DNA of 64,000 nt. It comes from Planctomycetota bacterium. Its GTDB lineage: Bacteria; Planctomycetota; Planctomycetia; Planctomycetales; Planctomycetaceae. A program made the position numbers and the translations under genes. How positions within the stretch are numbered: position 1 is the stretch's first letter; each line of letters opens with the position of its first letter. This document shows, one piece after another, positions 31,066-34,304 of the stretch. The stretch lies in NCBI GenBank assembly GCA_003388505.1, contig QQVO01000005.1, positions 62,001-126,000 of the forward strand, read 5' to 3'. The notes under the pieces were generated by a model that ran no database searches, was not told where the DNA came from, and saw only the letters and a program-made list of their open reading frames with translations.

Positions 31066-31115
31066 TCCGGGCTCCCTGATATTCGCAGACCCCCGCCTTG
31101 GCGGCCCGAACCTAC

Positions 31116-33500
31116 ATGAATTCCACAAACGAAAACGAGCCGCAGGACGCGTCGGGCGCAGAGGAGCGTGCGGCGTGGGTCGGTGATCCCGATCTGGGGG
31201 AGACGGTGGCTGCCGGACCGGAGACGCACGGTTCGCAGAATCGAGGCGCGCAGCCGGACACCGACCAGTGGGTCGGCCAGACACTGGGCAAGTATGAAAT
31301 CGTCCAGATTCTCGGCATGGGGGGCATGGGCGTCGTCTTCAAGGCGCATGATCCGACGATCGACCGGGATGTCGCAATCAAACTGCTGGCGAGCGATCTG
31401 TCCTCCGATGCGACCGCCTTAAACCGGTTTCTCGCTGAGGCTCGCAGCGCCGGAAAGCTGAATCACGCCAATGCGGTGACGATCCATGAGGTCGCCGAAG
31501 CGGAAGGGGCGCACTATCTCGTCATGGAGATCGTCTCCGGCGGCAGCGCTGCGGACCACCTGGAAGAAAAGGGGGCCTATGCGGTTGCCGACGCCACGAA
31601 GATGGTCATTGAGGCCTGCCAGGGTCTGGCCGCGGCGCACCGGGTCGGCCTGATTCACCGCGACGTCAAGCCCGCCAACCTGCTGCTGACCGAGGACGGC
31701 ACGGTCAAGGTCTCTGACTTTGGACTCGCCAAGCAGACCCGCAGTCAGACGCTGCAGATGACGCGCGCCGGGCAGGTCGTCGGCACGCCCTACTACATGA
31801 GTCCTGAGCAGTGCGAGTCGCGAGACGTCGACGCGCGGAGCGATGTCTATTCGCTCGGGGCGACCTACTACAGCCTGCTGACCGGCCGCAGCCCCTACGA
31901 GGACAGCGGCAGCCTGGTGCAGGTGATGTTTGCGCACTGCAATGCCGAACGGCCCGATCCGCGCGAGGTGAACTCGAAGGTTCCCCCGGCCTGCGCGGCG
32001 ATCATCAACCGCGCGATGGCGATCAAACCCGATGATCGCTACCAGTCGATCGACGAGATGCGAACCGATCTCGAAGCGGTGCTCGGCTCGATGTCGGGAG
32101 CCGGTATCACCCTCCCCAGCCAGTCGGGCGTCCGGTTCTCGCCGCTTGCGGGGTCGCAAACGACAAACAGTCCAACCTGGAATCGATCGGCCGTTCACGC
32201 GATCGCGGCGGCGTCGGTGCTGCTGCTGGTAGCAGGGTTCTTTGCGATCCGAAACGGACTGCGGAATGACAACTCGCCGGAGACGACCGGCGAAGATGCG
32301 CCGGCAATCGCCGCACCGCTCGAGGGCGAGCCGATCAAGGTCGGGATTCTGCATTCGCTGTCCGGCACCATGGCCGGCAACGAAACTTCGGTCGCCGACG
32401 CTGCTTTGCTGGCGGTCGAACAGATCAACGAGAACGGAGGGCTGCTGGGACGGCCGGTGGAAGCCGTGGTCGCTGACGGTCGTTCCAATTCTGAGACGTT
32501 CGCCCGCGAAACGCGTCGTCTCATCGAACAGGAGAACGTGTGCACGGTATTCGGTTGCTGGACATCGGCCGACCGCAAAACGGTGGTCCCCATCTTTGAA
32601 GAACTCGACCACCTGCTTGTCTACCCGGTGCAGTACGAGGGGATCGAGGAGTCGCCGAACGTCGTCTATACCGGCGCCGCTCCCAACCAGCAGATCATAC
32701 CGGCCGTCAAATGGGCCTACGCCTTCGACGACCGGCGTCGGTTCTTCCTCGTCGGTTCCGACTACGTGTTTCCGCGCGTGGCGCACGAGATCATCAAGGA
32801 TCAACTCACAGAGCTTGGCGCAGAGCTTGTCGGCGAGGAATTCCTGCCGCTCGGCAGCGATCGGGTCGGTCCGATTGTGGAAGCCATACAGGCCGCGCAG
32901 CCCGATGTGATCCTCAATTCGATCAACGGCGACAGCAACGAAGCGTTTTTCGCAGCGCTCCGGGAGGCCGGGATCACATCCGATACGGTTCCGACGATTT
33001 CGTTCAGCATCGGGGAAGAAGAACTCAAGCGGCTGGACGCCTCCGCAATGGTCGGCGACTACGCCGCCTGGAACTACTTCGAAAGCATCGACTCGCCCGA
33101 GAACGCCGAGTTCGTCGCCGCGCTGCGGGAGAAGTACGGTCCCGGATACCGTGTGAGCGATCCGATGGAGTCCGCCTGGTTCGGCGTCAAACTGTGGGCG
33201 CAGGCGGTTGAGTCGGCTGGGAGTGTTGATCCGTCAGTGATCCGTCACGAAATGCGGAACCAGCGGATGATCTCTCCGGGCGGAGCGGTCCGTATCGATC
33301 CGGCGACGCAACACACGTTCAAGACGCCACGGATCGGCAGAGTGCAAGCCGACGGACAATTTGAGATCGTCTGGACGGCGGCGAAGCCGGAACCACCGCA
33401 ACCCTATCCGGCCTCGCGCAGCACCGCCGACTGGAAGGCGTATCTGCACGACCTGTACACCGGCTGGGGGAACCGGTGGGCGGCGCCACATTACGAATAG
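31116..33500 (+). CDS. transmembrane Ser/Thr kinase fused to a UrtA-like urea-binding domain
   Basis: The protein has 794 residues. The cytoplasmic kinase comes first: LGKYEIVQILGMGGMGVVFK, AIKLL, catalytic HRDVKPAN (His181), DFGLAK and GTPYYMSPEQ, so it looks active. One transmembrane helix follows (about 361-383, AIAAASVLLLVAGFFAI). The outside part from about residue 407 to the end matches the urea ABC transporter binding protein UrtA: VGILHSLSGTMAGNET, TVFGCWTSADRKTV, LVYPVQYEG, YTGAAPNQQIIPAV, FFLVGSDYVFPR and SINGDSN. This is a one-component receptor design; urea or a short amide is the likely ligand. No urt or ure gene is nearby. An SDR gene follows 9 bp downstream. Confidence 0.92.
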   Translation: MNSTNENEPQDASGAEERAAWVGDPDLGETVAAGPETHGSQNRGAQPDTDQWVGQTLGKYEIVQILGMGGMGVVFKAHDPTIDRDVAIKLLASDLSSDATALNRFLAEARSAGKLNHANAVTIHEVAEAEGAHYLVMEIVSGGSAADHLEEKGAYAVADATKMVIEACQGLAAAHRVGLIHRDVKPANLLLTEDGTVKVSDFGLAKQTRSQTLQMTRAGQVVGTPYYMSPEQCESRDVDARSDVYSLGATYYSLLTGRSPYEDSGSLVQVMFAHCNAERPDPREVNSKVPPACAAIINRAMAIKPDDRYQSIDEMRTDLEAVLGSMSGAGITLPSQSGVRFSPLAGSQTTNSPTWNRSAVHAIAAASVLLLVAGFFAIRNGLRNDNSPETTGEDAPAIAAPLEGEPIKVGILHSLSGTMAGNETSVADAALLAVEQINENGGLLGRPVEAVVADGRSNSETFARETRRLIEQENVCTVFGCWTSADRKTVVPIFEELDHLLVYPVQYEGIEESPNVVYTGAAPNQQIIPAVKWAYAFDDRRRFFLVGSDYVFPRVAHEIIKDQLTELGAELVGEEFLPLGSDRVGPIVEAIQAAQPDVILNSINGDSNEAFFAALREAGITSDTVPTISFSIGEEELKRLDASAMVGDYAAWNYFESIDSPENAEFVAALREKYGPGYRVSDPMESAWFGVKLWAQAVESAGSVDPSVIRHEMRNQRMISPGGAVRIDPATQHTFKTPRIGRVQADGQFEIVWTAAKPEPPQPYPASRSTADWKAYLHDLYTGWGNRWAAPHYE

Positions 33501-33509
33501 GGTAAGTCG

Positions 33510-34304
33510 ATGGGCAGACTCGACGGTCGAGTAGTAATCGTCACCGGAAGCACACAGGGCGTCGGCGAGGCGGTCGTGCTGCACGCCGCCAGAGAGGGCG
33601 CCGCCGGAGTGGTCCTTTGCGGCCGCAGTGAAGACAAAGGCCGCGCTGTCGCAAAGCGCATCCACGAACTCGGAAGCACGGCCGAGTTTGTTCAGGCCGA
33701 CCTGTCCGTCCCCGACGACTGCCGGAACATCGCCCGCCGCTGCGAAGAACGATTCGGGCGCGTCGACGGGCTCGTCAACGCCGCCGCCGACACCAACCGC
33801 GGGACAATCGACGACACCACGGTCGAGTTCTGGGATTACCAGTTCGCCGTCAACGTCCGCGCCCCGTTCCTGCTCACCCAGGAATGCGTGCGGATTATGA
33901 AACGGCAGAAGATCGCCGGTTCGATCGTCAACATCCTGTCAGTGGCGGCCTACTGCGGAATGGACATTCTGTGTTCCTACAGCTCCACCAAGGGGGCGCT
34001 CAGCACATTCACGAAAAACACCGCCAACGCCTTGAGACAGCACCGTATTCGCGTGAACGGGATCAATCTTGGCTGGACCGACACGCCCAACGAGCAGGTC
34101 GTGCAACAGAAACAGGGCAGCCCCGACAACTGGCTCGAAACGGCCGAGAAGACGTCCCCCTTCGGCCGGTTGATCAAACCGGACGACGTCGCCCGGCTCT
34201 GCATGTACCTCCTCAGCGACGACTCCGGCATCCTCACCGGATCCAACATCGACTACACCCAACGCGTCATGGGCTTCTTCCCCCCCGAACGCGGGCCGGA
34301 GTAG
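33510..34304 (+). CDS. short-chain dehydrogenase/reductase
   Basis: The 264-residue protein has the Rossmann motif TGSTQGVG, the NAAADTN block in place of NNAG, the catalytic Ser in ILSVAAY and the SYSSTK Tyr/Lys pair, so it should be an NAD(P)-dependent oxidoreductase. Substrate is unknown; sugar and polyol dehydrogenases are the closest feel. It starts 9 bp after the kinase-UrtA stop and is probably co-transcribed, which may link it to that receptor's response. Confidence 0.9.
   Translation: MGRLDGRVVIVTGSTQGVGEAVVLHAAREGAAGVVLCGRSEDKGRAVAKRIHELGSTAEFVQADLSVPDDCRNIARRCEERFGRVDGLVNAAADTNRGTIDDTTVEFWDYQFAVNVRAPFLLTQECVRIMKRQKIAGSIVNILSVAAYCGMDILCSYSSTKGALSTFTKNTANALRQHRIRVNGINLGWTDTPNEQVVQQKQGSPDNWLETAEKTSPFGRLIKPDDVARLCMYLLSDDSGILTGSNIDYTQRVMGFFPPERGPE

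Follow-up and report, generated by a model that had tools for sequence, protein, structure and literature searches.

The analysed window is a stretch of 64,000 nucleotides from a planctomycete genome (G000:C19:62001-126000; host genome G000, 6.78 Mb, 98.8% complete). On its plus strand lies a single open frame in which a Ser/Thr kinase domain, a membrane helix and a UrtA-type solute-binding domain follow one another. This arrangement had been proposed in an initial annotation of the DNA, and both its coordinates and its content are correct. The one start that would lengthen the frame is an in-frame TTG at 31098. The gene comprises the following features:

31116..33500, plus strand: whole receptor-kinase gene, an open frame of 794 amino acids plus stop; architecture confirmed in another 20 orthologues and paralogues
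31116..31292, plus strand: N-terminal tail, predicted to be cytoplasmic, poorly conserved in alignment A1
31293..32045, plus strand: Ser/Thr kinase domain of PknB type, residues 60-310, with K89, E108, HRD 181-183, N188 and DFG 201-203
32193..32249, plus strand: single predicted transmembrane helix, residues about 360-378, with a Kyte-Doolittle hydropathy peak of 2.37
32334..33419, plus strand: UrtA-type (Peripla_BP_5) outer domain, residues 407-768, from Pfam PF13433, AlphaFold/Foldseek and PDB matches
33420..33497, plus strand: C-terminal tail (R..W..FL..LY..WG..W), from alignment A1

The kinase domain matches Pfam Pkinase (PF00069) at residues 60-310 with an E value of 2.7e-50, and its closest structural relatives are those of PknB (phmmer E 7.8e-56 with 1o6y). 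The VAIK, HRD, DFG and GTPYYMSPEQ motifs are all found. With K89, HRD 181-183 and DFG 201-203 intact, the kinase is apparently active, as had been suggested. The catalytic residues are likewise retained across the related fusions, with exceptions at the DFG motif, which reads DFS or DLG in L031 and L175. The expectation of one membrane helix between the kinase and the outer domain agrees with a lone hydropathy peak at residues 360-378, outside of which no separate stretch of 19 residues exceeds 1.4 on the Kyte-Doolittle scale. A hydrophobic stretch is present at the equivalent position of the other fusions and is weak in L031 and L020. A PASTA kinase identity is ruled out by the lack of any Pfam match to PASTA repeats in the 794-residue protein and by a score of 309 bits with the PASTA-kinase model NF033483 (cut-off of 450). 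Based on its sequence, in which every feature that can be checked is present, the product is a receptor-type Hanks kinase.

The outer domain matches Peripla_BP_5 (PF13433) over the full length of the profile (residues 407-768, 492 bits, E 1e-147). In a search of PDB sequences, the nearest solved relative is 8TG1, a urea-binding protein of Caldicellulosiruptor (E 2.6e-122), followed by the urea-bound UrtA structures 7S6F, 7S6E and 8HIC, with AmiC far weaker. An AlphaFold model of residues 401-794, built on an alignment of 30 sequences, reached a pLDDT of 92.5 and a pTM of 0.91. Its best Foldseek match is again 8TG1 (TM 0.85-0.90, 50% identity), with AmiC behind at 30%, and the top matches of the predicted fold are urea-binding proteins. 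Nine residues near urea were named in a study of Prochlorococcus UrtA, in which mutation of the four hydrogen-bonding positions or of W120 abolished or strongly reduced urea binding (PMC10392092). Relative to this pocket in 8HIC (W120, S122, Y141, Q144, E146, Y190, F192, N246 and S274), all nine positions are identical in the receptor kinase (W482, S484, Y503, Q506, E508, Y550, F552, N604 and S631). The amide receptor AmiC, with a pocket of YSYPEYYVT, shares four of the nine, and an AmiC-type amide pocket is thus not matched. The UrtA blocks FGCWTSADRK, LVYPVQYEG and YTGAAPNQQ, to which the initial annotation had drawn attention, are present and contain urea-pocket residues; the loss of ligand residues that it had named as grounds for abandoning a urea receptor was not observed. 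By these sequence measures, a UrtA-type urea-binding domain is present, yet the product is not a UrtA transport protein, because it scores below the cut-off of the curated UrtA model TIGR03407 (458.3 bits versus 492.75) and has no partner importer.

Across the fusion family, the urea signature is complete in 17 of 21 proteins and altered in L012 (N to V), L018, L031 and L020, which indicates that the fold alone does not enforce a urea pocket. Stand-alone planctomycete relatives carry pockets such as WSYAEYWVG, WSYPEDFTR and LSYSEDHTN. Since the pocket varies freely among such relatives of the same fold, the nine-residue match carries information; outer-domain identity between the query and its nearest fusions is 59-63%. 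A hypergeometric test of pocket conservation over all 21 fusions was not significant (P 0.069), and the same test within the 17 urea-type fusions is circular, as that set was picked by its pocket, and was not relied on. The C-terminal tail is common to the fusions and some of the planctomycete stand-alone relatives, and W773, W784 and W788 are invariant in alignment A1. Clearly altered pockets were observed in the stand-alone UrtA relatives L005, L011, L017, L021 and L013 (genomes G037, G055, G050, G046 and G034, respectively), with a tandem pair in G037. Judged by their pockets, these are likely to be binding proteins for other small molecules.

The kinase-UrtA fusion is genuine. Of 170 genomes from the same family, 18 were verified to carry the same order of kinase, helix and solute-binding domain, as were three genomes from two other families of the class; full-length identity to the query is 34-56% among the first nine fusions aligned. 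That two adjacent genes were joined by an error of annotation or assembly is hardly credible: at least 21 proteins share the same order and an in-frame linker in independent assemblies, including the single-contig genomes G001, G018, G047 and G933, and these in-frame fusions rule out a split gene, which the initial annotation had raised as a possibility in relatives. In a maximum-likelihood tree of 68 solute-binding domains, the 11 that are fused to a Ser/Thr kinase form one clade (support of 95/84; recovered in 92% of bootstrap trees), which stands apart from both transport UrtA and the histidine-kinase fusions. The grouping of the outer domains in one clade suggests that the fusion likely had a single origin, a reading made less certain by the long branches inside the clade. 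The fusion was found in none of the 65 actinobacterial genomes with strong PF13433 matches (395 genomes searched). One candidate, an actinobacterial frame of 892 residues, turned out to be a stand-alone lipoprotein with an upstream read-through. Among the matches listed in a cross-phylum scan of named genomes, there were only stand-alone or histidine-kinase forms, and no full-length match was found in plasmid records. A tandem pair of solute-binding protein-kinase fusions, of about 870 and 811 residues, was seen in G053 (L042:5318-10458), close to a third kinase; the altered pocket WSYREFYTG belongs to the second fusion of the pair. A partial literature search found no publications on the kinase-UrtA architecture. 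The architecture may already be visible in public annotation, under names such as 'bifunctional serine/threonine-protein kinase/ABC transporter substrate-binding protein'.

At the genomic level, the receptor gene stands alone, since no neighbour recurs. A short-chain dehydrogenase/reductase (SDR) gene (33510-34304) begins 9 bp downstream of the stop codon and had been put forward as part of the response. This role is not supported, as none of the fusion loci of eleven relatives carries an SDR or any other conserved neighbour; the eleven loci gave a single neighbour match, a DUF1501-type protein on the margin of one of them. Elsewhere in the host genome, the only other PF13433 protein is a hybrid of 1069 residues on the minus strand (L003:7639-10848, G000:C4), in which a UrtA-type domain is followed by HisKA, HATPase, two receiver domains and Hpt. 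This hybrid keeps all nine urea-pocket residues, and neither a signal peptide nor a helix is seen in it (maximum hydropathy of 1.09). As judged by the two sequences, the cell may therefore read one ligand on both sides of the membrane. A close relative of the hybrid occurs in G331 (L173), UrtA-histidine kinases are also present in cyanobacteria (L077, L078), and G004 (L019) likely encodes another, based on frame length.

The initial annotation had noted that no transporter lies nearby, and this extends to the whole host genome. No stand-alone UrtA was found, the only other UrtA-type protein is the histidine-kinase fusion, and the best match to UrtB reaches 49.5 bits (cut-off of 250.3). For the urease alpha subunit, the host genome gives at most 22.6 bits with the Pfam model and 21.2 bits with the NCBI model (cut-off of 680). 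For urea carboxylase, the biotin-carboxylase part matched alone, with 584 bits of the 1304 needed. Regulation of a local urea importer or of urease is rejected for this genome, and a simple nutrient role is doubtful. Urease is also absent from all ten fusion genomes tested, the host and nine others. A real urease is found in 6 of 60 related genomes, all six with a stand-alone (or permuted) UrtA-type protein; the genome groups differ in part by family, so this contrast is descriptive. G009, a member of the host's own family, offers a counterpart, as it has a complete urtABCDE-urease cluster but lacks the kinase fusion. From translation alone, UrtC and UrtD appear to be fused in one frame of 780 residues in this cluster (L044:2965-11215), and the two small urease subunits in another. 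G009 also encodes a circularly permuted UrtA in one frame (L044:1410-2858), in which a signal peptide with a lipobox is followed by the C-terminal segment (profile positions of about 270-361) and then by the N-terminal segment (1-273). This protein has the full urea pocket and scores 540.8 bits, above the UrtA cut-off. Such permuted forms recur across four or more genera of the family, with L190/G945, L191/G946, L193/G841 and L195/G885 read directly and that of G886 judged by its match pattern; this recurrence makes an assembly error unlikely. Treponema MglB-2 is a known permuted solute-binding protein (PMC4990184), and no report of a permuted UrtA was found in the literature.

Judged by its sequence, the protein is probably a receptor kinase in one piece, with urea outside the cell, or a very close analogue, as the signal to which it responds. 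In the proposed mechanism, the periplasmic UrtA-type Venus-flytrap domain would bind the ligand in a pocket of the ABC-importer type, and closure of the flytrap would be transmitted through the single helix, most likely by a changed pairing of two receptor copies. The altered pairing would shift trans-autophosphorylation and the activity of the predicted cytoplasmic PknB-type kinase, in whichever direction, and with it presumably the phosphorylation of downstream targets. The pairing step is borrowed by analogy from the single-pass PASTA kinases of bacteria, for which activation by ligand-induced dimerisation of the ectodomain-bearing kinase is established (reviewed in PMC6213207). Urea is more likely to be an environmental signal than a nutrient cue, because the host has no recognisable urea import or breakdown.

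Several results count against a urea receptor, namely the TIGR03407 score below the cut-off, the absence of a conserved neighbour or target and the lack of urease, urea carboxylase and UrtB, which removes the usual physiological reason to sense urea. The same receptor mechanism could instead serve another urea-like or amide compound, such as formamide, acetamide, methylurea or a ureide breakdown product, an alternative that we regard as rather unlikely. It would fit a genome in which no urea-using enzyme was found, and also the closeness of the UrtA and AmiC folds (AmiC structures are Foldseek hits 7-10) and the pocket changes in L012, L018, L020 and L031. Matches to FmdA_AmdA, the formamidase/acetamidase family, occur at three loci in the host and also in G001, G023 and G030, which keeps short amides as candidate ligands. 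However, these matches are absent from G002, G047, G192 and G247, all fusion genomes with an intact urea pocket, and the pocket of the receptor kinase agrees with urea-bound UrtA at nine of nine positions, against four for AmiC.

A further alternative, which appears improbable, would leave the outer domain structural or ligand-binding without control of the kinase. The kinase would then be constitutive or controlled from the cytoplasm, and the pocket would reflect ancestry or scavenging. The lack of a conserved operon or partner is in keeping with such an uncoupled domain. The pocket, however, stays intact in 17 of the 21 fusions while being lost in other relatives, the linker and helix are retained in the fusions (the helix weakly in L031 and L020), and the host genome holds no partner importer for a membrane-tethered binding protein. 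A receptor for urea or a very close analogue is thus the preferred reading. An extension of it, offered tentatively, is that urea is a signal read outside by the transmembrane Ser/Thr kinase and inside by the soluble histidine-kinase hybrid, in a host with no known route for taking up or hydrolysing urea, and that pocket changes have retuned other fusions to other small molecules.

The stimuli of most bacterial Ser/Thr kinases are unidentified, and finding them is an outstanding question (PMC6069109). In the present case, relatives of the sensor domain have a ligand that is understood in atomic detail. A test of ligand-dependent phosphorylation could therefore be set up without delay, and pocket mutants and naturally occurring pocket variants would provide its controls. 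If the proposed role is correct, it is puzzling that bacteria that lack urease should monitor urea.

The closest known systems share some features with the protein and differ in others. Ser/Thr kinases that span the membrane once and carry periplasmic accessory domains of various kinds are common in the Planctomycetota; the main text of a 2024 survey, which counted 105 accessory domains, names TPR, WD40, DUF1080 and others, and makes no mention of a urea or solute-binding domain (PMC11032199). With UrtA of the urea importer UrtABCDE (TIGR03407; 8HIC, 7S6E, 7S6F and 8TG1), the receptor kinase shares the full-length domain (44-51% identity), the predicted fold and the nine pocket residues. It differs in lacking a secretion signal and importer genes, in being tethered by a helix to a kinase and in its lower score (458 bits versus 492.75). 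AmiC of Pseudomonas (1PEA, 1QO0) has a related Peripla_BP domain that is likewise regulatory instead of transport-related, but it is cytoplasmic, acts on AmiR and has a pocket that is unlike at five of the nine positions. The L003 hybrid shares the UrtA-type domain, the same nine pocket residues and fusion to a signalling kinase, whereas it is soluble, has a HisKA-HATPase-REC-REC-Hpt output and occupies a separate branch of the tree. The PASTA Hanks kinases PknB, StkP and PrkC similarly consist of a cytoplasmic PknB-like kinase, one helix and an extracytoplasmic sensor; their sensor is a set of peptidoglycan-binding PASTA repeats, and here it is a Venus-flytrap solute-binding domain. Finally, the activity of the Ser/Thr kinase in the GlnH-GlnX-PknG system of Actinobacteria is set by a solute-binding protein on the other side of the membrane, with a separate membrane protein as the link (PMC6069109), and the same logic is proposed here by analogy. 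That route uses three proteins, with an aspartate/glutamate-binding protein and a soluble kinase, and the receptor described here would be its one-chain counterpart, with sensor, helix and kinase in one polypeptide.
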